From Spinacia oleracea (Eukaryota > Streptophyta > Magnoliopsida > Caryophyllales > Amaranthaceae), in contig NC_079489.1 of assembly GCF_020520425.1 (NCBI RefSeq), positions 18,066,001-18,130,000 on the forward strand: a stretch of DNA of 64,000 nucleotides. Direction: 5' to 3'. Of this stretch, positions 3,523-50,722 are shown piece after piece; position 1 is the first letter of the stretch, and the number at the start of each line of letters is the position of its first letter. The position numbers were made by a program, and so were the translations under genes. The notes under the pieces are model-generated. The model was given only the letters and a program-made list of their open reading frames with translations. It did no database searches and was not told the origin of the DNA.

Positions 3523-4476
3523 CTATGGTCTAGTTAGTACCATGTTACTGAAGTCATATCCGTCTGAGAGCATTACCCTTACCTCAGACATGCTCGGTCT
3601 GAGTTCTGAATATTGGACACACGAAAGCGCAACTTTGACAAAACGTATCACTTCATCTTCTGAAACTTGAGATAGAGTAGGATCGACAATCTCAGGAATC
3701 CTACCACTTGCTTGTAGGTCCCAAGCCCAATTCACCAAGATAAACCGCAGATTTTTCTTACCACTGATGATTTCGAGTAGAGTAATTCCAAAAGAAAACA
3801 CATCTGTCTTCTCTGAATATCTTCCTGTTATACAATATTCAATATCCAAGTAGCCAATTGTTCCACAAATACGGCTACTACGGTCTAATTCACTGTCTTC
3901 TAGAAGACTTGAACACTCAAAACCTACTATTTTGGGGTTGAAACTTGAATCCATTAACACATTCCCAGGCTTGAAATCACGAAGCACAACACGGGGACTG
4001 ATCCCGCAGTGAAGATATTCTAGAACCCGAACAATCTTAAAGCATATGGACACTCTCATGGGCCAATCTAGCACAGAACGATCTCCTACCCCACTGCTGG
4101 AGTCTGGAAACAACAACTGATCCAGGCTGCAATCCCCTACAAACTCGTGCACCAGCATTTTATGATTACCTTCAATGCAGTACCCAATGAGTTCCACTAC
4201 ATTTTGGTGCCTGACTCCAGACATGATTTTGATTATTGAAGCCAAGTCTATGACACTATAATCGGTTCTATATACGTTAACTATGACTTGTAACCCATCT
4301 GTTAAAGTGCCCTTGTAAGATGATGGAAATCCATTCGATCTGAGCCTATTGCTGAAATTGTTTGTTGCCTTTTTCAGTGATTTGTAGGAAAAACTAGTCA
4401 CGTTTCCTAACAAAGTATCCTCATTTGGGTTTAGATCGCGGATCAACTTCAATCTATAAGACAAACAACCCCCCAT
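3523..4476 (-). CDS. Membrane-anchored receptor-like cytoplasmic pseudokinase
   Basis: Intronless ORF of 317 aa with a protein-kinase fold but no ectodomain. The N-terminus MGGC fits myristoylation at Gly2 and palmitoylation at Cys4, so membrane anchoring is likely. FSYKSLKKATNNFS (29-42) is the usual lead-in of plant receptor-like kinases. Catalytic parts are degraded: the Gly loop reads SNGFPSSYKG, the VAVK Lys is Asn67, DFG is replaced by VGFE (184-187) and APE by DIE (211-213). The catalytic loop LRDFKPGN (165-172) keeps its Asp and Lys, and C-lobe motifs DVFSFG and RPSMSEV are present. Loss of the ATP Lys and Mg-binding Asp predicts no kinase activity, while the open full-length frame suggests selection as a scaffold. 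It resembles CRPK1-type cytoplasmic kinases, whose genes normally have introns, so it may be a retrocopy. Confidence 0.75.
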   Translation of the reverse strand: MGGCLSYRLKLIRDLNPNEDTLLGNVTSFSYKSLKKATNNFSNRLRSNGFPSSYKGTLTDGLQVIVNVYRTDYSVIDLASIIKIMSGVRHQNVVELIGYCIEGNHKMLVHEFVGDCSLDQLLFPDSSSGVGDRSVLDWPMRVSICFKIVRVLEYLHCGISPRVVLRDFKPGNVLMDSSFNPKIVGFECSSLLEDSELDRSSRICGTIGYLDIEYCITGRYSEKTDVFSFGITLLEIISGKKNLRFILVNWAWDLQASGRIPEIVDPTLSQVSEDEVIRFVKVALSCVQYSELRPSMSEVRVMLSDGYDFSNMVLTRP

Positions 4477-8308: not shown

Positions 8309-9476
8309 CACTACAAGAAAGCGGTGATTTTACGACTAAATTTTCCGACCACAGGAAAAGTAGTCGGTAAAATCGAATTTTACCGACTATTTAAATGATG
8401 GTCGTTAAATATAATATTTACCGACTAAATAAAATTGGTCGGTAAGTTACGACTACTACACAAGTAACTTACGACTATTTAATAGTCGTGAAATAAATCG
8501 ACCAAAACAAATGTTTTAAAAAATTTAACGACCAAAGCGACGAAAGATATTTAGCGACCACTTTATTTAGTCGCTAAATTCCGACTACAGTTTGGGCAGT
8601 CGTTGATAACAAGTTTTACGACTACATTTTAGTTGGTAAAAAAAAAAAAATCAATATGTGGTCGTTAATATATGGTCACAGATTTACTATTCCGACCATC
8701 CTTTTGGTCGTAAATTGTTTTAAAAGAAACAACCCCTTCTTCAATACAGTAGTCGCTAAATTTCCGACTACAAATTTAGTCGTTAAAATTGCGACCACAA
8801 AAGTAGTTGGAAATCACCGACCACAAAAGTAGTCGTTATTTTAGGGACTAGCTTTGTAGTCGGTAATTTCCGACTACTTCTGTAGTCGTGATTTTAACGA
8901 TTACTCCCTCCGTCTCTTTTTGTTTTTTACGTTTGGTATTTTACACGCGTTTTAACGACTAATTAATGTGCATTGAGACTCTTCTAAGTTTTTCATGTAA
9001 ACGAGGAAAATTACGTTTATTTATAATGTTTTCACTCTTATCAAAATTCTGATATTGGGAAATTGAGAAAAAGTTAATGTCTTTATGGAAAAGTGGGAGA
9101 GATTAAATGACCCAATGGATTTAATTGGTTAATATAATAATTGGCACAAATTTTGATAAAATATTAAATCATTTATGTGATAATATAAAAGGAAATGTAA
9201 AAAACATTTTGAAATACCCAAAAAGGAAAACGTAAAAAACAAAAAGTGACGGAGGGAGTACTTTGGTAGTCGGATATTTTGCAACTACAATTTAGTCGGT
9301 AAAGTAGTCGTAGAAATTTAACGACTACTTTTCAGTCGTATTTTCCTAATATACCGACCAGTAATATTCCGACTACACTCTACCGACCACTTTCAATCGC
9401 AAAACTATTTAGCGACCAATTTAACCATTTTTCCGACCATTTTTGTCGGTCGGAAAAATGAAGATTTCTTGTAGTG
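8309..9476. mobile_element. Non-autonomous CACTA (En/Spm) transposon
   Basis: Ends are CACTACAAGAAA (8309-8320) and its exact inverse (9465-9476), the hallmark of CACTA elements. A perfect 3-bp target duplication GTT flanks it (8306-8308, 9477-9479). Subterminal regions are packed with short repeats of the type CGACTAC / GACCAC in both orientations, as is known for transposase binding in this superfamily. Without the nested MITE its length is about 813 bp. No ORF. It sits in the right arm of the foldback element. Confidence 0.93.
8904..9258. mobile_element. Stowaway-like MITE nested in the CACTA element (355 bp, family A)
   Basis: Ends CTCCCTCCGTCTCTTTTTG and its inverse, flanked by TA at 8902-8903 and 9259-9260. 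It is the same family as the copy at 11890 (356 bp) and the decayed copy near 19113. It is the youngest layer of a three-deep nest. Confidence 0.9.
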
Positions 9477-9639
9477 GTTGTAAGCTGTTGAAGGTGAGTT
9501 GTAAGGTTGGAGGTAAGGTGGTGAGTGAAAGTAAGGTGAAAGGTTAAAATATAAAGGGGTAAATATAGAGAGATATTCGTGACATTTAATAGGGCGAGTA
9601 AGTATTTATGAGGCGGGGTTTAATAAGCCCCGTAGTTAT

Positions 9640-10350
9640 TCTTCTACCATTGCAAGAGCCAAGAGATAGCTCGTGCGGCAGTAGTACTTCCACTTGACAT
9701 ATTATTATATGGACTACAAACGGAGAAAAAATTAAGGCCTTAAGGGCACTAGATCAAGTATAAAGTAAGTATATAAATCACCCAGAATTTTATTTAATCT
9801 GAGAAAAGTATTATTCTAAAAGTGTTTTTGTATAGGCGTAGTGTTCGAAAGTTAGAAAGTGTACTGATTACATAAGTTGTGCAAGATCTAACGTACAAGA
9901 AGTCAAGAACCATAAGTTAGAGCACCCCATGTAATTAGCTCCATCAATATGTAAATAAAACAACAGTATACTAAATTACTAACACTACACTATGATAAGT
10001 CTATAACTCTAACAAACAACATAACATGCTACGTGCGTCTAAATAGTACTCCGTAATCTTAAAAGTCATTTGCATATTACATAGCCTACCATTTTACCTC
10101 ACCATTATCCTTAAACATTATGTCAAATAAAATTAGAACAATTAGAAACACGAAGTAATTTTAAGTGACATCTTCGGATAAGTACGTAGTAGGTGATGGA
10201 GCAACGTACCCTCACCACCGTTCACTTGATGGACTATATCCTATGCAACCACTTTAAGGTCCGAAAAGACCCACGTACCACCACCTCTTATTTTTTCCCT
10301 AAGAAGATAATAACTTACCCCTTCATGATTATTAAATATATTTATATCGA
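9640..10350. other. Intergenic DNA
   Basis: AT-rich sequence with no recognised gene or repeat. The last 100 bp probably holds the 3' UTR of the collagen-like gene, which reads on the minus strand. Confidence 0.35.
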
Positions 10351-10986
10351 TCACATACAATGAGTACCCGGTGCTCCTGGTGTTCCTGGAACACCAGGAA
10401 TTCCCGGGGAACCAGGAATTCCTGGTGAACCAGGAGTGCTTCGACTGCCAGGAGTTCCTGGTGTGCCAGGAGTACCTGGGGTAGCTGGTGCGCCAGGACT
10501 ACCTGGTTTGCCACCACAAGTTCCTGGTGTGCCAGGAGTTCCTGACGTGGCTGGAGCACCGGGTGTTCCCGGAACACTCGGTGCTCCAGGGCCTCCTATG
10601 TTGCTTCTAGTTTTTGTTGAGACAAGAGCGCTAAGAGTATGTGGAGTGTTAGGAGGTCTTGGAGTACCCGGAGTTCCAGGTGTACCAGGAGTTCCCGGTG
10701 TGCCTGGAGTTCCAGGTGTGCCGCCTGAAGTTCCCGGTGTGCCACGTCCTCCCGGAGTACCACGTCCTCCTAATGTGCCACGTTGTCCTGGTGCTCCATC
10801 TTTTCCTGGTTTGCCATCTTTTCCTGGTTTACCATCTCTTCCTGGTGTACCTAGGGTGCCCAGAGTGCCAGGATTTGTCGGTGGGTGAGACTTTTCACTA
10901 TAACCACAAGCATACATGGATGACAACAACATCACCAGACAGAACATGTAGACGAAAAACACCAGTGTTAATTTTGGTTCCCCCAT
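10351..10986 (-). CDS. Secreted collagen-like Gly-X-Y repeat protein
   Basis: Intronless ORF of 211 aa. A hydrophobic signal peptide (about 1-27) precedes two collagen-like blocks. Block 1 (40-109) has 16 unbroken Gly-X-Y triplets, beginning with charged ones such as GRD, GKP, GKD and GQR. One extra Gly (88-89) is followed by seven GTP triplets. A linker of about 21 aa (110-130) with no Gly follows. Block 2 (131-208) has about 25 triplets, mostly GTP, GAP, GSP and GIP, with four Gly positions changed to Ser or Ala and one register slip near 159-161. The tail is GTHCM. No globular domain is seen. Pro in the Y place and Lys in GKP/GKD are typical collagen hydroxylation contexts, though plant enzymes differ. 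An extracellular or wall structural role is inference. True collagen-like proteins are rare in plants. Regular repeats on both strands give long antisense ORFs, which I treat as shadows. Confidence 0.75.
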   Translation of the reverse strand: MGEPKLTLVFFVYMFCLVMLLSSMYACGYSEKSHPPTNPGTLGTLGTPGRDGKPGKDGKPGKDGAPGQRGTLGGRGTPGGRGTPGTSGGTPGTPGTPGTPGTPGTPGTPRPPNTPHTLSALVSTKTRSNIGGPGAPSVPGTPGAPATSGTPGTPGTCGGKPGSPGAPATPGTPGTPGTPGSRSTPGSPGIPGSPGIPGVPGTPGAPGTHCM

Positions 10987-11117
10987 GGTTAGGGAAGATT
11001 TTTATTTTCTTTTAGGGTCTTGATCTATGAGATTTTTAATATCAGGGAATGTATAGATAAGATTGGTTTAACCAACGTGTAATAATAAACTCAAGAGTTA
11101 CATGGAGGAAGTCTTAC

Positions 11118-11127
11118 ACAATATAAA
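11118..11127 (-). promoter_or_regulatory. Possible TATA box of the collagen-like gene
   Basis: The minus strand carries TATTTATATT about 130 bases upstream of the ATG, between the gene and the MITE at 11154. Position is plausible, but AT-rich context makes this weak. Confidence 0.3.
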
Positions 11128-11153
11128 TACTACTGATAATTTATTAAATAATA

Positions 11154-11469
11154 CTCCCTCCGTCCCGGAATACTCGACCCGGTTTGACCGGCACATAGTT
11201 TAAGGGATTTGAATTGACTTATTTAATTTAATAGGTAGTAGTTGATAGTGGGGTATTATTTTAATGTAGTTAGTGTGAGGTGGGGTTGGGGAAGAGTAGG
11301 GGTTGAATTTTTAATTATTTTTTGTATGGAGTAGGGGGTGGGTGGGTTAATAGGGATGGAGTGAGAAATAATATAATATTGTTAGAATATTTCCATTTTT
11401 AGAAACAGGTCAAGTATTAAGGGACGGCCCGATAAGGAAAACAGGTCAAGTATTCCGGGACGGAGGGAG
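11154..11469. mobile_element. Stowaway-like MITE, family B (316 bp)
   Basis: Ends CTCCCTCCGTCCCGGAATAC and its inverse with TA on both sides (11152-11153, 11470-11471). Two close relatives occur at 46620 and 51111. It lies just upstream of the collagen-like gene, within about 170 bp of its start, so it could supply promoter sequence. Confidence 0.9.
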
Positions 11470-11698
11470 TACGAAGTATATATCTGTTTTTTTTTTTTTT
11501 TGCAATTGTACGTTGTATTTTCATTTGGTACTAAACAACATAAGTTGTAAAAGTAGGGTAGTTGTATTTTGTCATTTGGTACCAAACAACATAGTTTGGT
11601 ACTAACAAGTCAAAGGTAAATGGTTTTTTTTTCCTGGGTCAAACTCATTTAATGAGTTGAAGTTATTGTCTCATAAAACCTTAGTTACATTCAAAATA

Positions 11699-11887: not shown

Positions 11888-11889
11888 TA

Positions 11890-12245
11890 CTCCCTCCGAC
11901 TCTTTTTGTTTTTTACGTTTTCTTTTCTGGGCATTTCAAAATGTTCTTTACATTTCCTTTTATATTATCACATAAATGACTTACTATTCTATTAAAATTT
12001 GTGTCCAATTATTATTTTAACCAATTAAATTCATTGGATCATTTAATATCTCACACTTTTCCATTGGGACATTAAATTTTTTCTCATTTTTCAATATCAG
12101 AATTTTGATAAAAGTGAAAACATTATAAATAAACGTAAATTATCTTGTTTAAATAAAAAAAATTGAGGAATCTCGATTCAAATTAATTAATCGTTAAAAC
12201 GCGTGAAAAATACCAAACGTAAAAAATAAAAAGAGACGGAGGGAG
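11890..12245. mobile_element. Stowaway-like MITE, family A (356 bp)
   Basis: Ends CTCCCTCCGACTCTTTTTG and its inverse, TA on both sides (11888-11889, 12246-12247). Its body matches the copy at 8904 in inverted orientation, including ACGTTTATTTATAATG. Confidence 0.9.
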
Positions 12246-12369
12246 TATTACTGAGTTCAGACTACCTGGTTTTACAGACATGTCATTTCGTCGATTTCTT
12301 TTCTTAACTCTATTTCATTCCTCAATCATTCATAATTCTTTCCGAACTTCCTAACATTCATTGATATCA

Positions 12370-19991: not shown

Positions 19992-22761
19992 TGTAATCCC
20001 CCGTAAATTTAGAAACATTATTTATATATTTTAACGTATAGTTAATTATATTTAAATAAAAATTTACTAATTTTAGTAATAAATATATAATTAACGTATA
20101 TTTATTTTTATACGTTTTAAATATTTCAACGATTTATGAAATTAAAATAATTTTAGAATTTGATGTTGAAAATAATTTGAATTACGAAAACACGATTGAA
20201 TTTAGAAAACAATCCTAAGCGGTGTTGAATTCAAATACCAAACTTAATTCTAATCCTAGCCCAATTTGATATAGCCCAATTTGATAAAGCCCAAAACAAA
20301 TAACCCATAAACCCAAATCCTTGTTTCAATACTCACGTGAAACTCAACTCCCCTTCTCTTCTCCCCATTCACGTGTTCACGTAAAAATCACCAAAATCTC
20401 AAACCCTCCTCCTTTCTCTCAGCCGTCGGACCTCTGCTGCGCCACCACTCCTCCGTCGTCGGTACTCCTCCATCTCCTCCTGCTTCTTCTCTTTCGTTTT
20501 CCTTTCTCCTTTACTTTGCTTTATTGTCTTCTCTCATCCTCACTCGTGGTTTTGTTTTCTGCGACAACCACCACCACCACCTGGTCGCCGCTACTACGCC
20601 ACCACCTTGCCGCGCCGTTGAGACGCCTCCATGCTTGCTGCGCCGGTAATCTCTTATTCCTCCTCCCTCTCTTGCTTCATTCTTTCTCTTGTTCGTTTTC
20701 TACAACCTTACTCGGTTGTTTATGCGTTCGCAGCCACCAGCGCACCTCCGTGTGCAACCCTGCCGCCCAGCCGCGCCTCCAGCCATGCCTTCGTCCTTCC
20801 TCTCTCCTAACTTTTGGTTATTTCCTTAAACCCTAAACTAATTAATGAATTTAATTACGTTTTAATAATTTAATTATGTTTCTTGAATTAAAATTATAAC
20901 TTTTATGATTTGATTATGAATTTCAAGAATTATATGTTTGCATAATTAAATTATTAATTTTCAGATTATATAAATGCATTGAAATATTGATTTTTAATTA
21001 TTTAAAGTATGAATTTTAAGGTTTTTAATGATTTTAAATCATGGTAGGATGTTTAGGAATTATTAAAGTTATTGTTTTTATGATTTCAAACATGTTAATT
21101 ATGTTTTGGAGCAGTTTGAAAGTAGTTATATTGCTGGAAATTAAAGTATGATGTTTGCGAAGAGTTTTCAACGAATTTCAATCATTGATTCAATAATTAT
21201 TATGCTAGGAAATCAAATACTCAAGTTTTGATGTTGGGGAATGTTCTAAGTATATTTAGGATGTATTTGGAATGCTTTATTATGGTTGCGAATGATTAGA
21301 AATTGATGGGGATTATTTGTTGGTTGTTTTAGGCGGAGAATTTTCTTTAGGCGATATTTGAAAGTGTTAAAGTGGCCTATTAGTTGTTTATACAAGGTAC
21401 GTACATACCTGTGTGCTTGGAACGTGTGCTAATTGTTGAAACCATGTTGAATCTTGTTGTTGAACTTGGTTATGTTGATATTATTGTTGAACTTGGTGAT
21501 GTTGATATTATGGACGAACTGGGTTATATTGAATGTGCATGTTTAATACTGTTGGACAAACTTATTGAACTCATTTTGCACTATAAGAACTGTAACATGT
21601 TAGTATGGATGTTTGATACAAACATGTTGGTTGGGAACACTAGATTATTCTATATGATTGGGTTGGATCAATTGGTTGTTGTTCCCTTTCTATCTTTTCA
21701 CTACTTTATAAGGGCGGAGGACCTTGTTTAGTAAGTTGAAACTTTATGCCCATATACAGGGTTGCTCATGGTTAAAGGAAAGGTTGGTTAAGTTGGAATG
21801 AGTCTTGATTGATGCTTTTATGATCACTTACTTAATTCCAAGATAAAAACAGTTGTGAACAAATGTGAATTGTCTGTCTTATGTAATGGTTGAGTCATAA
21901 CGGAATCTCAATTTGTAAATCATGTAAAGTGAAACTGAATAGCAATAGCTTTAGACTGTGCACGTCTGAAGTGACGGACAAACAGGAGTTGGGGTTCATG
22001 GTGGTAGCCCATGGCCTTTTCTGGGACCGGATTGATCACCGTGTCCTATTTTTATTTAAACGTTCCTCGATATCGCAGGTCACTGAGGTTACGGAGTCGC
22101 GCCCGTACCTCGTCTTCCTTAGTGAAGACTTCTGGATGGTCAACTCGGTCCATTGTCTATTTCAACTAAAATAATATTATGGTTGTTAAGCCTAGCTTAG
22201 TCTAGTCAAGTATAATCGTCAATTTATTATGTTTTGTCTGTCCTTACCTATATTTATTAGTATCATGTTAGGGTTGTTGGTTTGATAGTATCATGCTAGG
22301 ATTGTTGTTGTTTTAGTATGTAGTACTCAGCTTTGCTGATTACGTGCTTTGTTTGTGTGTGTTGATCATGGCTATGCCTTATTGATCCTGTGATGACCCA
22401 TCTTTGGTGAGCAGTCTCTAAGGATCAATAAGCGTTGCCCATCTACAGGTTTGAAGATGATGCATCATTGGGATCGGGATTAGAGAGCTTGTAGTTCTAT
22501 TCGTTTAATTAAGTGATTTAATTTGTTAACTTGGATTTGAAATTTGTCGTACTATTCGTGATTCCTTATTTTCGTTAATTGGTTTTGAACTTAATATGTA
22601 ATCGATTATTTATAAACCTAAGAGTTAGTTTTATGTTTTCCGCTGCAAAATTCTGAATAAGCCGTTACGTTTTCACACGGGCGATAATGCCTTGATAATT
22701 CTCTATAGTTATATTTATAAAAGGGTTGTTTTAGAAAAAAGGGAATTGTCGGGGTGTTACA
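19992..22761 (+). repeat. 5' LTR of the 10-kb element
   Basis: Same length as the 3' LTR with a constant offset of 7,199 bp and no indels seen. It holds a pyrimidine- and GC-rich block (about 20330-20820) between AT-rich flanks. ORFs of 171, 115 and 94 aa within it recur in both LTRs simply because the LTRs are identical. Confidence 0.93.
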
Positions 22762-24266
22762 AAGTGGTATCTAGAAGCTTATGGTTTTACTTCAATGATT
22801 TTTAGGCGCCTAAACTAGCTAATTTTCTAAAATGAATTTCCCAGAATTGAGCTACTACTTATTATATCATTCAAAAATGCGTACTTTTTTTTGGGGGACC
22901 ATATTCATTTTATTTTGTGTGAAAGTACATTAATATTTCTTATTTAAGTTCGAAATTAACTTATTTATTCAAAATTTGTCGTTTACGTGAATTAAGTACG
23001 TTTTTCTTTCTTTTCGAAATTAAATTAAATATATATATATATATAAAAAAAAAAAAAAAAAAAAATTCCTTAAGTATCTTTATTCCTTTATATTTATTCG
23101 TTTAATAAATATTTATTCGTTTAATAAAATTCCTTTCTTATTAACCGTCTCGTTTATTTCTTAAGTGTTTTAATGTTTTACTTATTTTGATTTATTATGA
23201 GAGATGGGTAATATAGGAAAGGGCATATAGGATAGAATTATATGTGCATTAGTAGTTAATTGCTAGCATAAGAATTAATTGCTATGTGCATGTGTTAAAT
23301 GTTTAACTGTTGCATGTAAATGTGCATAGAAATTGTTTGATTCCACCAAACTTATTGTTTTATTGAATTCTGATTATGCTTTGGTTGGGAAATCGTTAGT
23401 AAGATCTTAAGTTGTTTGTTTCATGAATAAAACGCTTCTTTCCAAGTACACCAACATAAGATCCTTTGAGAAGATCGACGAATACTGAGGATCTAGATTT
23501 CACTTCACAAATTTCCAAGGAAAGAACAGATAGACAAGATGCCTTAAACATTTAAAGTTGTAATAGTTAGGTTGTTCTTAAATGTTTTGGAGAATAAGTA
23601 GCAAAGCTACAACAGTTTAAAGTTAAAGCAATAGGAGTTTAAGTTATTCTTTATTCTTTTCAAGGATGTATTAAACCTTTATAGAGTTAGTAATAAAAGT
23701 TAAAGTATTCTTTTCGTTTTGAGAATTCCAAGTTGCGCTCTAGGATGACCAACAATAATGACCTAGCTGCTGTTATTCGCCTTTTGGCGGAAAAGCTGAC
23801 CCTACCTTTTTAGAAAACCGAGTTGGAGAGTTTGAGAAATCGTTTGGGGTTGTGAACTGTCCTTAGAATATGAGAGTGAGTCAAGTTGTCATGTATTTGA
23901 AAGATGAAGCTGATTTATGGTGGAGAGAGAATAGAGTTAGGTTTAGCACTGCTGAGAGATTCAATTAGGATTCAATTGTTACTGCCTTAAGGGAAAGTTT
24001 TACCCTACCTTTTATGAGAAAGCAAAAAGTTTGGGAATTCATAAACCTTAGTATGGGGAGCATGACCATTGTCGATTACTATAGCAAATTTATAGCACTG
24101 TCGTGGTTTGCACCTGAGGTTGTAGCCACAGAGGAGCTAAAGGCTCTGGGGTTTAAGCAATGTTTGACTGAGGAGATCCAATTAGGATTAGGTGGGAAAA
24201 CCTTTACATCTTTGGATATTGTGTATGGGAAAGCTGCTCATATTTATGGTTTGCAGTCTAGAAGGG

Positions 24267-24304
<38 letters not shown>
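24267..24304 (+). repeat. Poly(A) run inside the 10-kb element
   Basis: Uninterrupted A run of more than 35 bases in the gag-like region. It may be a mutated simple repeat, and its length should be treated as approximate because such runs are hard to assemble. Confidence 0.8.
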
Positions 24305-24308
<4 letters not shown>

Positions 24309-26894
24309 TTCTTGGGGAGAAAAGAAAAGAGTTTAATGCTGGGGAAAACCAGGGGAATTTCAAGAGGAATATGAATGAAAACGGGTATGGGAATGGATAT
24401 GAAAACTTTCAAGGAAGGAACAAACAAGGGAACAACAATAGGAATCAATATGAGAGAGTGTAGTACTGTAAGATGTGCAGTAACAACCATCCTGGTAGAA
24501 ACTACAAATGGAGAATTAGTCACCTACAACTATTGTCAGAAAAAGGGACATGGGGAGTATGAATGCTTTACTAAAGCAGAAAAAGGAGCATAATGGTAAT
24601 GGGAGTGGTAACCAGGTGAAGTCGGGATTTAACCAGTCAAGAAATTAGGGTTCAAAGCATGTAGGAGCGCAGAACAACCAAAGGAACCTCAATAAGTCTG
24701 CCAATGAGAATAACAACCATAATAAGGCTCCGGGTAAACTGTTCGCAATGATTCGAAATGAAGCTGAGCTATCTGTTGACGTAGTTTCTGGTACTTTCCT
24801 ATTAACTTCATACTAGTTAGAAAGTTATTTGATTCGGGGGCAACTTATTCTTTTGTTTCGTCATCTGTTGTTAAGAGTCTGAATTTAGTAGATTTGAGGT
24901 GATTGATTTACCTTTTAGTACCTACTGGTGTAACCTTAAGGTGTACCAAGTTGTTTAAGAACTTGCCTTTGAAGATAAAAGATTGCGTTTTCCTTCTGAT
25001 TTGATAAGGTTTAATCTGAGGGACCTAGATGTAATTCCTGGGATGGATTGGCTAAGTTTGTGCAAGGCTAAGGTAGACTGTGAAATTCAGAAAATAAGTT
25101 TAAGGAACCCTATTGGAAGGTTGGCCTCGTGTAGATGTTTTGAGAAGTCCAAAAACCTTTAGTTATTTCTGGAATGCGAGTGAGGAAATTGATGAATAGA
25201 AAGTGTGAACTATTTTCCTGTAGTGTGTTAGAGGTGAGTAAAGAAGTGGAGTGAAAATTGAGGATGTTTGCCATTGTGAATGGATTCATTGATGTGTTTC
25301 CGAGTGAAATTGCAAGTATGTTATCTGTTAGAGCCTTTGAGTTCATTATAGACTTAGTTCCTAGAATGACGCATATATCTAAAGCACCATATAGAATGAC
25401 ACCTCCTGAAATGAGCTAATTAAGACAAAGTTGCAAAAGTTGTTTGGTCAAGGAATATATTAGGCCTAGTGCATCACCGTGGGGAGCTCCTGTGTTGTTT
25501 GTTAAGGAGAAAGATAAGAGTATGGAATTATGCATCGATTTTAGGGAGCTAAACACCATCAAGAACAAGTATCCCTTGCCTAAGATAGATGACATATTAG
25601 ACCAATTGAATTGGGCGAGTGTGTTCTCGAAGACTGATTTGGGTTTAAAGTACTACCGATTGGGAGTAGCTGATAAGAATATACTTAAGACCTCATTAGG
25701 ATTCGTTATTGTCATTAAGGGTTTAGAGTAACGTCTTTAGGGTTAACCAATGCACCTGCATTAATTGTGGATTTGATGAATGAGGTTTTCTACGAATTCT
25801 GAATTAAGTCGTTATTATGTTATTGATGATATCCCGATTTGTTCAAGGAATGAGAAAGAGCATGACAAACACTTGAGAATTACTTGGAGACGCTTAGAAA
25901 GAATCTAGTTTTATTAAATGAAGTATACAAATCTTGAAGTCATATGTGTATAAGTGACACCGACGGAAAAGTGAAGGACTAAATTGATTGAGAACTATGT
26001 TACGTAAGGGAATAAAATTTAGAGAAGATTCGAGTGGTCCAGTATCGTTAGGAATCGTGTGTTGTCTTGAAAAGATGGGAGGAATTATATGAATTAGTGA
26101 AAGAGCTAAGAGTTAAGCCCAAAAGTTATACATCCATGAAAGGTGTAATGAGGTTTAGTAAAAAAAAAAAAAAAAAGGAAAAGTTGACCAGAAGGAATCT
26201 CTGTAGATCCTGCTAAGATTCAAGCTGTGAGTAAGTGACCTATTCCAAGAACGCGTCCGATATCTGAAGTTTTCTAGGCTTAGATGACCATTATAGGAGG
26301 TTGTGGAAGACTTTTGGAAGAAAGAAAAACCAATGACCAACTTGTTGAAAAAGTAATCGAAATTCGAGTGAAGTGAGAAATGTGAGGAAGCTTTCTAGAT
26401 TTAGTTGTTGTAGCGTCAATTGACACCTTATAAGGCTAATTACCAAACCCATGACCTAGAGTTAGCTGTTATGGTGTTATCTACGAATATTTGGAGACAT
26501 TACCTTTATAGGGCAACATGTAAGATCCTTACCGAGAACAAAAGGCTGAAATTTTTGCAATAAGGTCCAATTGAATCTTGGGGACAACATTGAAAATGAA
26601 TATTGCTTTCCACCCTGCAACCGATAGACAGATTGAGATTACTAACGGGATTTATGTTGAAAACCTGTGTTATTGACTTTAAGGGTAATTGGGAAAACCA
26701 CCTAGAGTCGATTGAATTTCTTGCAACAATAGTTACTATGCGAGCTTTAAGATGTCACATGTTGAGGCATTGTGTGGAAAGAGAGTAGAAATCCTACTTG
26801 CTACGATTTTAGTCGAAATATACGTTGGGCACATGATTCGTTGAAATAGAAATATCCAAACTTATTCCCTGAGATGAGTTACGAGGGCGTAACT

Positions 26895-27190
26895 CGTTTT
26901 CTTTAAGAGGGGTAGAATGCGATAGAAATTCGCGATTTTTACCTATTTTTATAGAAATTTTATGCATTTTATGCTCATTTTTAGCAACTTATACTTGTTG
27001 ATGCAAAATAAAGATATTCTTTGCATAAGGAAAATGTGTTCTTGAGTAACACAAACAACTTTAAGTTGGCAAAAGAGTGCACATGAGTGGCACAAGTATT
27101 TCTCTACTAAAGATGAATTAAAGACTTTTGAAAAATGTGTGAATTTTCGTGTCAAGTTTCGGGACGAAACTTCTTTTAAGAGGGGTAGAT
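26895..27190 (+). repeat. Second purine tract and possible foreign LTR fragment inside the 10-kb element
   Basis: TTTAAGAGGGGTAGAATGCG near 26900 looks like a polypurine tract joined to the start of a different LTR. About 270 bp later the true tract (AAGAGGGGTAGAT) precedes the 3' LTR. This suggests the interior is a mosaic of two related elements. Confidence 0.45.
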
Positions 27191-29960
27191 TGTAATCCCC
27201 CGTAAATTTAGAAACATTATTTATATATTTTAACGTATAGTTAATTATATTTAAATAAAAATTTACTAATTTTAGTAATAAATATATAATTAACGTATAT
27301 TTATTTTTATACGTTTTAAATATTTCAACGATTTATGAAATTAAAATAATTTTAGAATTTGATGTTGAAAATAATTTGAATTACGAAAACACGATTGAAT
27401 TTAGAAAACAATCCTAAGCGGTGTTGAATTCAAATACCAAACTTAATTCTAATCCTAGCCCAATTTGATATAGCCCAATTTGATAAAGCCCAAAACAAAT
27501 AACCCATAAACCCAAATCCTTGTTTCAATACTCACGTGAAACTCAACTCCCCTTCTCTTCTCCCCATTCACGTGTTCACGTAAAAATCACCAAAATCTCA
27601 AACCCTCCTCCTTTCTCTCAGCCGTCGGACCTCTGCTGCGCCACCACTCCTCCGTCGTCGGTACTCCTCCATCTCCTCCTGCTTCTTCTCTTTCGTTTTC
27701 CTTTCTCCTTTACTTTGCTTTATTGTCTTCTCTCATCCTCACTCGTGGTTTTGTTTTCTGCGACAACCACCACCACCACCTGGTCGCCGCTACTACGCCA
27801 CCACCTTGCCGCGCCGTTGAGACGCCTCCATGCTTGCTGCGCCGGTAATCTCTTATTCCTCCTCCCTCTCTTGCTTCATTCTTTCTCTTGTTCGTTTTCT
27901 ACAACCTTACTCGGTTGTTTATGCGTTCGCAGCCACCAGCGCACCTCCGTGTGCAACCCTGCCGCCCAGTCGCGCCTCCAGCCATGCCTTCGTCCTTCCT
28001 CTCTCCTAACTTTTGGTTATTTCCTTAAACCCTAAACTAATTAATGAATTTAATTACGTTTTAATAATTTAATTATGTTTCTTGAATTAAAATTATAACT
28101 TTTATGATTTGATTATGAATTTCAAGAATTATATGTTTGCATAATTAAATTATTAATTTTCAGATTATATAAATGCATTGAAATATTGATTTTTAATTAT
28201 TTAAAGTATGAATTTTAAGGTTTTTAATGATTTTAAATCATGGTAGGATGTTTAGGAATTATTAAAGTTATTGTTTTTATGATTTCAAACATGTTAATTA
28301 TGTTTTGGAGCAGTTTGAAAGTAGTTATATTGCTGGAAATTAAAGTATGATGTTTGCGAAGAGTTTTCAACGAATTTCAATCATTGATTCAATAATTATT
28401 ATGCTAGGAAATCAAATACTCAAGTTTTGATGTTGGGGAATGTTCTAAGTATATTTAGGATGTATTTGGAATGCTTTATTATGGTTGCAGATGATTAGAA
28501 ATTGATGGGGATTATTTGTTGGTTGTTTTAGGCGGAGAATTTTCTTTAGGCGATATTTGAAAGTGTTAAAGTGGCCTATTAGTTGTTTATACAAGGTACG
28601 TACATACCTGTGTGCTTGGAACGTGTGCTAATTGTTGAAACCATGTTGAATCTTGTTGTTGAACTTGGTTATGTTGATATTATTGTTGAACTTGGTGATG
28701 TTGATATTATGGACGAACTGGGTTATATTGAATGTGCATGTTTAATACTGTTGGACAAACTTATTGAACTCATTTTGCACTATAAGAACTGTAACATGTT
28801 AGTATGGATGTTTGATACAAACATGTTGGTTGGGAACACTAGATTATTCTATATGATTGGGTTGGATCAATTGGTTGTTGTTCCCTTTCTATCTTTTCAC
28901 TACTTTATAAGGGCGGAGGACCTTGTTTAGTAAGTTGAAACTTTATGCCCATATACAGGGTTGCTCATGGTTAAAGGAAAGGTTGGTTAAGTTGGAATGA
29001 GTCTTGATTGATGCTTTTATGATCACTTACTTAATTCCAAGATAAAAACAGTTGTGAACAAATGTGAATTGTCTGTCTTATGTAATGGTTGAGTCATAAC
29101 GGAATCTCAATTTGTAAATCATGTAAAGTGAAACTGAATAGCAATAGCTTTAGACTGTGCACGTCTGAAGTGACGGACAAACAGGAGTTGGGGTTCATGG
29201 TGGTAGCCCATGGCCTTTTCTGGGACCGGATTGATCACCGTGTCCTATTTTTATTTAAACGTTCCTCGATATCGCAGGTCACTGAGGTTACGGAGTCGCG
29301 CCCGTACCTCGTCTTCCTTAGTGAAGACTTCTGGATGGTCAACTCGGTCCATTGTCTATTTCAACTAAAATAATATTATGGTTGTTAAGCCTAGCTTAGT
29401 CTAGTCAAGTATAATCGTCAATTTATTATGTTTTGTCTGTCCTTACCTATATTTATTAGTATCATGTTAGGGTTGTTGGTTTGATAGTATCATGCTAGGA
29501 TTGTTGTTGTTTTAGTATGTAGTACTCAGCTTTGCTGATTACGTGCTTTGTTTGTGTGTGTTGATCATGGCTATGCCTTATTGATCCTGTGATGACCCAT
29601 CTTTGGTGAGCAGTCTCTAAGGATCAATAAGCGTTGCCCATCTACAGGTTTGAAGATGATGCATCATTGGGATCGGGATTAGAGAGCTTGTAGTTCTATT
29701 CGTTTAATTAAGTGATTTAATTTGTTAACTTGGATTTGAAATTTGTCGTACTATTCGTGATTCCTTATTTTCGTTAATTGGTTTTGAACTTAATATGTAA
29801 TCGATTATTTATAAACCTAAGAGTTAGTTTTATGTTTTCCGCTGCAAAATTCTGAATAAGCCGTTACGTTTTCACACGGGCGATAATGCCTTGATAATTC
29901 TCTATAGTTATATTTATAAAAGGGTTGTTTTAGAAAAAAGGGAATTGTCGGGGTGTTACA
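27191..29960 (+). repeat. 3' LTR of the 10-kb element
   Basis: Near-identical copy of 19992-22761, preceded by the purine-rich AAGAGGGGTAGAT. The base after its end starts the second TTTCC target copy. Confidence 0.93.
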
Positions 29961-43600: not shown

Positions 43601-45908
43601 TTGATTCAGGTGGAAGGAAAATATAGCTTTCCAAGGGCTGTGAAGAATAAAATCAGTGAATGGGCAGAGCTCTATAATCGCAGTTTCCTGGGAGAGAGAA
43701 AAACAAGCTAAGGCAAAAGAGTGAAAGGACAATTTCTTTTCTCTTCTATTGTGTAAAAACTTGAACCATGCAACGTTTGCTATTCTTCGCCTAGCAGATG
43801 AGGAGTACAGTTAACAAGCAATTTTGAACTCATAAATGTAAATCACTAATTGTCATTGTTGAACTGCACCATAACTGATGTCATAAGCGAGAAAAATGTA
43901 CTACAAAAATAAAATCGGATTCCTTATCCTGCTGTCTAGAGTAAGCAAGCTTATTATGGTCCTGCACTGATGGTCTGCGGGGAATTAAGTGCAACACTTG
44001 AAGAAATAATCAACCAAATGATCTCGGTTCAGCAGCTCCACAGATTCTGCCTTCTGCAGTTTGTTTCCACCAGGGAGGAAGAGTTCAGTTACAGCATCTG
44101 ATTGTTTAGTATAATGGCTTCCCGGTAAATTATTTGACCCAATGTCTAATTATGCCCGAAGGTAAACTGAATCCAGGTGATACAGGAGAATGGTCGTTCT
44201 TTGAAAGAAAGAAGAAAAACAAAAACAAAAATTAATACATGTAGAAAGCATACCTGGCATTAGCTCACTCGTCGGAAACATGCTCTGCAGCATTGACTCC
44301 CTTTCTACAATGAAGTCCTCAGCTGAAAGGGAGTCACTTATTCCAGTCTCTTCAACAAATATCCTAGCAGCTTCTATTGCTTTTTTCCCCATCATTCTTG
44401 CTTTGAGAGACCAATCAAAAGTTTTATTGTATCTAGCTAGTATCTGTTCCTGAACTTCTGTATAAAACTTCTCAGTATCTGCAACAATATGGCATCAGAG
44501 TTAATTTAGTTTTCTCCCTAGCATAAGTAGCACTATGTTAGACTTCACTAGCACGGCAATAGCATAAACTTCAAGTTCAAGAACAATAAAGTTTTAAGAA
44601 AGTGAGGAGGATATGATGAGTACAAACAACTAAAAATAAAGAACTGATAAATATTGCTATTCATCCAATTATATTTAAACTATGAGCTCCAACACAAGCT
44701 GATTTGTCAGACTTGAAAAAGCTATTGACGCGAGGCGAACAAACCCTGGAATGTAAAGCATTCATAAGGGGAAAGAGGGGGAAACTTGTACGGTCAGGTG
44801 CACTTCTTTCAATACAGTGTACGAATTTTCTCCCTTTCCAGCAAAGAGAAAGCTTGCAAACGAGAAGATAAAGAGAATGTACAATTAGTTGCAGAAACTA
44901 CCTGGAATAATTAGGACAAGACAATACACCATTACTCTTCTTGGAAAATTCTACTCCGTATAATCCCTTTTCCATTTAACAGACAACAGATATAAAACCT
45001 TTATATTTTTCAAGGTGGAGGAAGTAGCTTAACTTGTCCCCCTCCCACACCCCCACCACACACACATGCGCACAACTTCATTTCACAGGAAATAAAACAT
45101 CTGTGAAGTTTCTATTTCACCAGAATCTATGTTACTCTGACTATTCATTTTACCTAAAGTACCCATGTCGGATACTTGATACTCCGACATGGGTAAGTAC
45201 CTTTGGACACTTCACTTTGGGCTAAAATCCCAAAATAGCCGAGTCGGGCACTCCGACATGTACCTGTGTCCGGCATGAGTATCTGAGTTCGAGTAACATT
45301 ACCGAGAATTTATAATTTCCTAGATTCAACTAAATGGCCACTCGGATTATCAAAAGCTTGAAAAAAAAAAAAAAAAAAAACTAAGGAAGATGATACATTT
45401 GTCATTCTTGATCCGACTATACTAATCTTAAGGGAGCTGATGACATTGAATGAATCCCCAATTTCCATCACTCTCCCCCTCCCTAATTTCAAACGGCAAT
45501 CTACGCCGAGTTTATCATCTAGTAATTTCATCACTTACAATTAAACTAAGTAATCAATCAATTTCCTAATACTATTAGCATTAATTTTAAAAGAATGATG
45601 CAAACTTCCACCATCTATTACTATCAAATCAAGTAAATAATCAACCCAAGTCATAAGAAATTACAGTATAAAATCAAAACAATTGGATACGGAGTACATT
45701 GATAAGTAATGGAAAGATATGAAGAACTATAGGTGGGGTTACCTAGTAAGAGACCATCCATGTCAAATATAACGTGGGTGATTGCGGGCTTCGTCGGAAC
45801 TGAAGCGGCGGCATCCACGGCGGAGTTGACCATGTTGGGGTTGCACAACTGCTTGGGCGGAGTGATTGATTCCAAATTGTGCAGCAAAGGGGACTCTTTT
45901 GTGGACAA
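40660..45908 (-). CDS. HAD phosphatase, glycerol-3-phosphatase type, tandem copy 1
   Basis: Six exons on the minus strand: 45908-45743, 44478-44254, 43468-43408, 41576-41429, 41286-41207 and 40792-40660, totalling 813 nt (270 aa) with consistent GT-AG junctions. HAD motif I is [10 protein letters not shown] (Asp49 and Asp51), motif II the Thr of ICVATG, motif III the Lys of QGKPSPD and motif [10 protein letters not shown]. It matches plant GPP1/GPP2 enzymes, which dephosphorylate glycerol-3-phosphate. Substrates of this subfamily overlap, so sugar phosphates or pseudouridine phosphate are alternatives. Compared with copy 2, a one-base difference near 45833 puts the N-terminal region (45834-46048) in another frame, so translation must start at 45908 or 45833, giving a likely cytosolic form. 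Intron 3 carries a LINE. Exons are close to copy 2; catalytic residues are intact. Confidence 0.88.
42244..43330 (+). mobile_element. 5'-truncated L1-type LINE in intron 3 of phosphatase copy 1
   Basis: Absent from the matching intron of copy 2. It starts with the C-terminal part of a LINE ORF2: one frame at about 42295-42450 reads WHARNKSLW, then [11 protein letters not shown] and [10 protein letters not shown], the familiar tail after reverse transcriptase. A long GT-rich 3' region and an A-rich tail (CCAAAAATAAAAA) follow. Direct repeats of about 14 bp (AAAAAAGAGTGCA) flank it at 42225-42238 and 43329-43342, as expected for target-primed insertion. The ORF2 frame is disrupted upstream of this stretch. 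It lies antisense to the host gene. Confidence 0.8.
45160..45195. repeat. 13-bp perfect hairpin in intron 1 of phosphatase copy 1
   Basis: TACCCATGTCGGA and its inverse TCCGACATGGGTA lie about ten bases apart, followed by further GTCGGGCACTCCGACATG-like words to 45290. It is a CCGACA-rich repeat of unknown family, absent from copy 2. Confidence 0.6.
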
Positions 45909-49900: not shown

Positions 49901-50722
49901 AGTGGAGGAAAGAGCTTAACTTGTACCCCCCACCCTATACACAGACTCACAGTTCATTTCAAAAATCCTCAAAACTGTGATTTCACCAGAACTGTATTTC
50001 CTACATTCAACTAAACGACCATCCGGAATCCGGATGATCAAAAGATCGAAAATAAAAACAGCAATTTGTTCTTTCAATCAATATGTATGAATCCCCAATT
50101 CCCATCCTCTTAAGGGAGCTGATAACATTGAATGAATCCCCAATTCCCATCAATTCCCTCCTAATTTAAGACAACAATTTACGCCAAAATTCATCATCAA
50201 GTACTCCGTAACTTGCAAGTTGCAAGCAAACAAATAACAAATAAATTTCATGAATATGTAAGCATTATTTTTAACAAAACACGAAGAAAGATGCAAACTT
50301 CCATGATTTCTCATATTACAATGCCATCAAATCAAGCAAGAAAATCAACCCAAATAAGAAAAACACAACATTAAATCAAACAAATCAAATGCAGCAATAA
50401 CTAACGAAGTAAAGAGAGAAATATAAAAGTGAGAGTTACCTAGTAAAAGACCATCCATGTCAAATAAAACGTGAGTGATAGTGGGCTTCGAAGGAACTGA
50501 AGCGGCGGCATTCACGGCGGAGTTGGCCATTGCTGGGGTTGTGCAACTGCTTCGTCGGAGTGATTGACGCCGAATTGTGCAGCAAATTGGACTGTTTTGT
50601 GGGTAAATTATAATCGGATATCTAATGACCTCGTTTCTTTTGGGGAGGGAACTACATGCAAAATGAGGGACTTCTTTTAGCAATCTTATGTTTTGGTGGA
50701 ACATAAGATGACTTTGAGCCAT
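46953..50722 (-). CDS. HAD phosphatase, glycerol-3-phosphatase type, tandem copy 2 with targeting extension
   Basis: Six exons: 50722-50440, 49374-49150, 48335-48275, 47771-47624, 47483-47404 and 47085-46953. They total 930 nt (309 aa), and exons 2-6 have exactly the lengths of copy 1. Motifs: [10 protein letters not shown] (Asp88, Asp90), Thr in CVATS, Lys in QGKPSPD and VFEDAPAG. The first 66 or so residues are rich in Ser and Arg and run in frame into the HAD domain, as in organelle-targeted GPP1-like proteins, so plastid or mitochondrial import is likely. Copy 1 lacks this in frame. An internal Met at 66 could give a cytosolic form. Catalytic residues are intact. The 3' end is altered by a MITE just past the stop. 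The function is a phosphatase; the exact substrate is inferred from family. Confidence 0.9.

Follow-up and report, generated by a model that had tools for sequence, protein, structure and literature searches.

Introduction

Hybrid proline-rich proteins (HyPRPs) form a family of putative plant wall proteins whose repeat domain, in one account, is defined by (XP)n or (XPY)n occurring at least twice (PMC6784160). Another report describes HyPRPs as diversifying fast in sequence, with rearrangement-prone repeats and with Gly-rich N-terminal domains that evolved separately in a number of lineages, perhaps through inversion (PMC2216038). An inversion would be expected to preserve a Gly-X-Pro pattern, since GTP read one way becomes GVP the other. 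The hydroxyproline-rich glycoproteins of plants are a second point of comparison. By the Hyp contiguity hypothesis, isolated hydroxyproline (Hyp) is galactosylated and carries type II arabinogalactan and contiguous Hyp carries short arabinans; the arabinogalactan-protein (AGP) rule places non-contiguous Hyp in [A/S/T]P modules, and site prediction is not straightforward (PMC7511660). Most plant prolyl 4-hydroxylases (P4Hs) are described as hydroxylating collagen-like, extensin-type and AGP-like sequences (PMC4132260).

A literature search of titles and abstract openings, with subscription journals mostly outside its reach, gave no HyPRP-derived or other flowering-plant collagen-like gene among the matches listed. 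Here we describe a Gly-X-Y gene at C3:18076351-18076986, within a 64,000-nucleotide stretch of the Spinacia oleracea genome (hereafter the window; C3:18066001-18130000), which very probably derives from a HyPRP gene and not from a collagen.

Results

A leader followed by an interrupted Gly-X-Y protein

The initial annotation had described window positions 10351-10986 as a single open frame for a leader and a Gly-X-Y protein, and this was borne out by the sequence and the ORF listing: the minus strand carries one uninterrupted frame of 211 aa with 47 Gly-X-Y triplets, running from an ATG at 10986-10984 to a TGA stop at 10353-10351. Residues 1-26 (10909-10986, minus strand) are leader-like and related to the leader of a HyPRP on contig C6 described below; they form a putative signal peptide, assigned by hydropathy only (mean 2.2 over residues 6-25), with a presumed cleavage site. 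The first Gly-X-Y block (residues 40-109; 10660-10869, minus strand) is made up of 17 consecutive triplets and, after a slip of one residue, a further 7, all GTP. By triplet count it is followed by a non-collagen insert of 21 residues, RPPNTPHTLSALVSTKTRSNI (residues 110-130; 10597-10659, minus strand), and then by a second block (residues 131-209; 10360-10596, minus strand) with 23 strict triplets, four Gly replacements and one slip. When runs of at least two are counted, 24 triplets fall before the insert and 23 after it, against about 23 and 25 in the initial annotation; two triplet pairs overlap at one-residue register slips, leaving 45 non-overlapping triplets.

The tally of the 47 triplets is GTP 17, GAP 5, GTL 3, GKP 3, GSP 3, GKD 2, GGR 2, GIP 2 and ten singletons. 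The charged GRD, GKP, GKD and GQR triplets noted at the outset are indeed present, grouped as GRD-GKP-GKD-GKP-GKD-GAP-GQR within the 17-triplet run of the first block, and in the second block Gly is substituted at four in-register sites, SVP, ATS, ATP and STP. The longest runs are of 17, 8 and 7 triplets. When the mature protein was shuffled 2000 times, the mean length of the longest run was 3.7 and none exceeded 9; the run of 17 is not chance. A tandem repeat with 9- and 18-bp steps underlies the Gly-X-Y coding stretch.

Collagen profile matches and the coding strand

Pfam Collagen (PF01391) matched the window protein at 60.8 bits against a cut-off of 27.2, with Gly at every third position unbroken for 17 triplets only, after which come the slips, the 21-residue break and the four Gly replacements. 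The opposite strand also holds an open frame (10436-10888, plus strand), of 150 aa and Gly-Val-Pro type, which scores 32.3 bits with the same profile. It reads as Gly-Val-Pro because GGN-ACN-CCN reversed is GGN-GTN-CCN and, since this antisense frame too passes the cut-off, little weight can be put on a Collagen match by itself at this locus. The openness of the 150-aa frame and its score could be taken to mean that the plus strand is the coding one, or that neither strand is. However, this frame has no leader and would start with GTG in plant nuclear sequence, whereas the minus frame has its start codon, leader and UTR in common with the C6 gene. We therefore regard such a reading as having next to no probability, take the plus-strand frame as a by-product of the repeat and not as a gene, and fix the coding strand as minus on the basis of the leader and the C6 relative.

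Across the genome, PF01391 matched the window gene (on both strands) and one further place, C4:159995049-159995201(-), three places in all and a lower bound, as only the best candidates were scored. The C4 place, which has an Ala-Pro-rich open frame (L030:2473-2871(+)) on its other strand, was considered as a second collagen and set aside as a probable antisense artefact. Whole-protein and PF01391 searches found no second long collagen-like gene in the genome among the best candidates scored. A structure library searched by sequence returned 15 distinct PDB sequences at E 0.001 or better. The best was 8zxl, a GAPGAPGSQGAPGLQ repeat chain named spindlefibril/axialfibril, on which there was nothing among the literature matches listed, and nearly all others were collagen chains or C1q; these matches were set down to repeat composition and rejected as kinship.

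A 5' end in common with a HyPRP gene

The genome searched comprised 894,210,420 bases in 242 contigs. Searched in six frames at E up to 10, the 40-residue N-terminus matched a single place besides its own, on C6 (39 aa at 51%, E 1e-7), and the DNA of 10880-11151 found that same place as its only other match, at 75% over 130 bp (10884-11013, E 3.1e-15). The 27 bases of 5' UTR adjoining the ATG (10987-11013, minus strand) are aligned with the 5' UTR of the C6 gene. Compared directly, the two genes were 71% alike over 171 bp by blastn, and a full-length tblastn with filters off gave E 7.7e-29, a value inflated by composition. As the whole window protein matched only its own place in the genome (35 candidates scored), the link to C6 rests on the leader and UTR, together with the composition-inflated tblastn.

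The C6 relative (L029:2352-3164(-)), which sits roughly 150 kb short of one end of its 151.45-Mb contig, is a 270-aa HyPRP with a leader, a Pro/Gly-rich linker and, at the C-terminus, an eight-cysteine domain scoring 82.8 bits with PF14547. Its linker holds Gly-X-Pro-type runs of 8 and 5 triplets, the former being GAPGAPGAPGTPGSSGPPGAPGSS. The two genes are alike in leader, 5' UTR, a Cys-Gly-Tyr after the leader (Cys-Gly-Tyr-Ser in the window gene and Cys-Gly-Tyr-Cys in the relative), a linker Gly-X-Pro tract and a single open frame. Unlike the window gene, the C6 gene keeps PF14547, has only these short runs, and has two PF14547 genes as neighbours in the same orientation (L029, 3918-4379 and 5718-6221). 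A Cys after the leader as a shared motif was tried and rejected: it is present in 6 of 6 aligned leaders, but four of these were chosen for it, and L047 and L049 are among the loci without it.

PF14547 has 58 genomic matches, stops being present in some of them. The C6 protein matched 51 places, of which 25 loci were read (L033 and L045 in part), the other 26, one of them the window gene, falling outside this reading; among the 25, the C6 gene alone has a Gly-X-Pro run of at least 3 triplets, and the only others with any triplet run, L032 and L037, have runs that are mostly Gly. L033 (C3:15321944-15322219), a HyPRP about 2.75 Mb from the window gene, has an open frame listed as 1316 residues, and the 595 residues read consist of PPVVTPPSTPP-type repeats and the eight-cysteine domain. 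No eight-cysteine domain was detected in the window (best tblastn of the domain, E 0.41) and no PF14547 in the window protein at E up to 1; a downstream second exon encoding the domain was rejected, the domain being without a match in the window. The window protein thus has the leader and the Pro-rich repeat of a HyPRP (42 Pro in 211 residues, in GXP repeats) but not the eight-cysteine motif, and is therefore a HyPRP descendant and not a member.

Further upstream, a TATA-like TATATTG (11119-11125, minus strand), beginning 139 bases before the ATG, aligns weakly with a TATA-like site at -121 of the C6 gene. Over the whole upstream alignment, an equal or better score arose in 17 of 1000 shuffles, the two genes being weakly alike beyond the UTR. 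No source of the new 3' end was found with the DNA of 9485-10345: outside its own locus, matches (40 of 82 candidates scored) covered just parts 3-162 and 286-552 of the query.

The annotation had suggested a lineage-specific invention by expansion of a 9-bp repeat, and had set the gene apart from plant wall proteins. The 9-/18-bp repeat is there; however, because the leader, the 5' UTR and a short Gly-X-Y tract are in common with a HyPRP, and thus with a putative wall-protein family, the gene was not invented from nothing and the separation from wall proteins is unneeded. The same findings bear on acquisition of a bacterial or viral collagen-like gene by horizontal transfer. Such an origin would suit the charged block, which resembles bacterial collagen-like stretches, with loci in bacterial genomes (16 in number) matching part of residues 21-70 at 46-66% identity. 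However, all 16 matches start at residue 21 or beyond, which leaves the leader unshared, and a plant gene resident in this genome, with its own Gly-X-Y tract, has a matching leader and 5' UTR. A tblastn against 50,697 phage records gave no match, a null result that the low-complexity filter makes weak for a repeat protein. We consider horizontal transfer very improbable, and retain descent from a HyPRP.

Elements around the gene

A MITE at 11153-11472 (strand unassigned), presumably Stowaway-like and one of three copies in the window, lies 166 bases upstream of the ATG and limits the proximal promoter. The gene is flanked by inverted repeats at 8902-9260 and 11888-12247, whose two arms show 86-91% complementarity. 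The left one is a MITE of about 359 bp with short terminal inverted repeats of its own and 2961 first-look candidates genome-wide; among the 40 scored, full-length copies other than the query were 94-96% alike. The right arm is taken as a second copy of this MITE in opposite orientation, the left copy alone having served as query. A long-TIR transposon carrying the gene was rejected as an explanation, the arms being abundant MITE copies that mimic long terminal repeats. The left copy is itself nested in an element at 8309-9476 with CACTACAAGAAA / TTTCTTGTAGTG ends and GTT on both sides, which we take to be non-autonomous and CACTA-like. Among this element and the MITEs nearby there was no sign of one carrying the gene.

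Elsewhere in the window, 161-2614 is an uninterrupted 817-aa frame that we take to resemble an S-domain (lectin) receptor kinase, and a second frame at 3523-4476 is presumably kinase-like. A direct duplication with a 7199-bp offset spans 19992-29518 (D4, with matching tandem repeats and ORFs), and a duplicated gene piece lies at 45738-45833 and 50435-50530 (91% alike). Within the ORF at 50345-50722 there is a DMDGLLL motif that we take to resemble HAD-type hydrolases.

Repeat history and the possibility of decay

The 17 GTP units are written as 13 different 9-mers, and the repeat units look old. In the run of seven GTP units, 16 of 16 neighbour differences are at third positions, though given the 18-bp higher-order period fewer than 16 independent events lie behind them. 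At first, second and third codon positions, differences numbered 30, 36 and 94 in 39 neighbouring triplet pairs, and 17, 23 and 41 in 31 pairs at two-unit spacing, both counts being favoured by the picking of Gly-starting triplets. The pattern suggests that filtering acted on the repeat at the protein level during part of its history, on one strand or the other and before or after loss of the domain. Third-position variation cannot separate the strands, because wobble positions coincide on both, and it may date from a full-length ancestor. Over the 34 leader codons shared with the C6 gene, differences were 10, 3 and 10 at first, second and third positions (NG86 dN 0.26, dS 0.30), with bootstrap ranges of 0.29-3.78 for omega (median 0.91) and 0.06-0.68 for dS (499 usable of 500 replicates). 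The leader codon test is thus uninformative and gives no clear or strong signal of purifying selection.

These results touch on the main rival to a working gene, namely that the locus is a pseudogene fragment, a functionless cut-down HyPRP copy whose frame happens to have stayed open because few codons of the repeat are a single change away from a stop. In a neutral simulation with no indels, a frame was indeed often still open over 200 codons (in 1189, 737, 424 and 107 of 2000 at 0.05, 0.10, 0.15 and 0.30 substitutions per site). Decay would also fit with the missing eight-cysteine domain that defines the family, the leader without clear purifying selection, the MITE close to the promoter and the Gly replaced at four repeat positions. 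In contrast, frame, leader and ATG are all intact, and once indels were simulated at one-tenth of the substitution rate the frame seldom stayed open (in 236, 47, 17 and 2 of 2000 at the same four levels). That indel rate is an assumption and the age is poorly known, half of the NG86 dS being about 0.15 with a wide bootstrap range, and the open frame therefore favours function modestly. We consider decay possible but rather doubtful.

Proline context and the predicted product

Pro occupies the Y position in 32 of the 47 triplets and the X position in none. Of the 42 Pro, 30 are preceded by Thr, Ala, Ser or Val ([ASTV]P), and there are 2 PP pairs. Arabinogalactan-proteins are recognised by a content of at least 50% Pro+Ala+Ser+Thr; residues 27-211 stand right at that line, with 50.3%, and contain 27.6% Gly. 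Unlike the directly repeated [A/S/T]P of the AGP rule, most [ASTV]P are spaced by Gly (TPG 18), with many junctions reading GTPG. An O-glycosylation motif quoted in PMC7511660 fits 21 of 42 Pro in the window protein vs 8 of 57 in the C6 relative. By eye, the C-terminus of the window protein has no hydrophobic stretch that could serve a GPI anchor. Because of this Pro context, the Hyp contiguity hypothesis and the substrate range of P4Hs, a secreted Hyp-rich O-glycoprotein was chosen as the preferred reading. The gene probably encodes a working secreted glycoprotein, as predicted from sequence, and its product more probably resembles a hydroxylated, O-glycosylated arabinogalactan-protein than a collagen that folds into a triple helix.

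The alternative is a true plant collagen, a trimer whose Gly-X-Y triple helix would be stabilised by Y-position Pro hydroxylated by plant prolyl hydroxylases, derived through expansion of a lipid-transfer-type wall protein's linker and loss of the folded domain. Animal collagen carries hydroxyproline in the Y position, and the frequency of Pro at Y in the window protein, its 17 unbroken triplets with their charged residues and its Pfam Collagen score are all as a collagen would have them; plant P4Hs, moreover, take collagen-like sequences (PMC4132260). Yet X-position Pro is absent, the repeat is disrupted by four Gly replacements, two register slips and the 21-residue break, predicted O-glycosylation sites are dense, and a Pfam search of the window protein recognised no trimerisation-capable domain besides Collagen. 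A plant collagen is thus unlikely, and we keep to the secreted O-glycoprotein.

Discussion

Descent from a HyPRP and a working glycoprotein, taken jointly, make a reading that we hold to be moderately probable. A dispersed duplicate of a HyPRP gene would have placed a copy on C3, after which the 9/18-bp Gly-X-Pro unit may have multiplied to about 45 triplets; the 3' portion, with the eight-cysteine domain, would have been lost, the frame coming to stop in local sequence. We infer the direction from HyPRP to truncated repeat protein because the domain is widespread in the family and the truncated copy is single. The product would enter the secretory pathway, where plant prolyl 4-hydroxylases would turn many of the prolines after Thr, Ala, Ser or Val into hydroxyproline, and these would be O-glycosylated with arabinogalactan-type glycans. 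The end state would be an extended glycoprotein in the apoplast, soluble or wall-held. Its Gly-X-Y register would be an outcome of repeat expansion, for which a stable triple helix is possible and not required.

The locus thus offers a plausible plant route to collagen-like sequence, in which the already Gly-X-Pro-rich linker of a wall protein grows as a short unit expands and the folded domain is lost, and a relative of the ancestral kind is still present in the same genome. If expressed, the gene provides a test of which of two outcomes, triple helix or arabinogalactan scaffold, a plant Gly-X-Pro repeat leads to. A further point is one of caution, in that plant Pfam Collagen matches can stem from Pro/Gly repeats, even on the antisense strand.

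Among known systems, the collagen repeat PF01391 is matched in its Gly-X-Y runs, its charged triplets and a profile score over the cut-off; unlike it, the window protein is apparently of independent origin, is interrupted, has no X-position Pro and has no trimerisation domain found by Pfam. Extensins differ in their Ser-(Pro)3-5 repeats, which were not found here, the window protein having only the 2 PP pairs. Arabinogalactan-proteins resemble it in the share of Pro in [ASTV]P (30/42) and, right at the borderline, in the Pro, Ala, Ser and Thr content of residues 27-211 (50.3%); its Gly content (27.6%), its Gly-X-Y register, its charged block and, as judged by eye, its lack of a GPI-anchor tail set it apart from them. 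The HyPRPs with atypical Gly-rich N-terminal domains likewise have a fast-evolving repeat domain and have undergone repeated switches from Pro-rich to Gly-rich; in contrast to the window gene they keep the eight-cysteine domain, and the word collagen occurs 0 times in that text (PMC2216038). The window gene adds to the known variety of HyPRPs a collagen-type register coupled with loss of the eight-cysteine domain.
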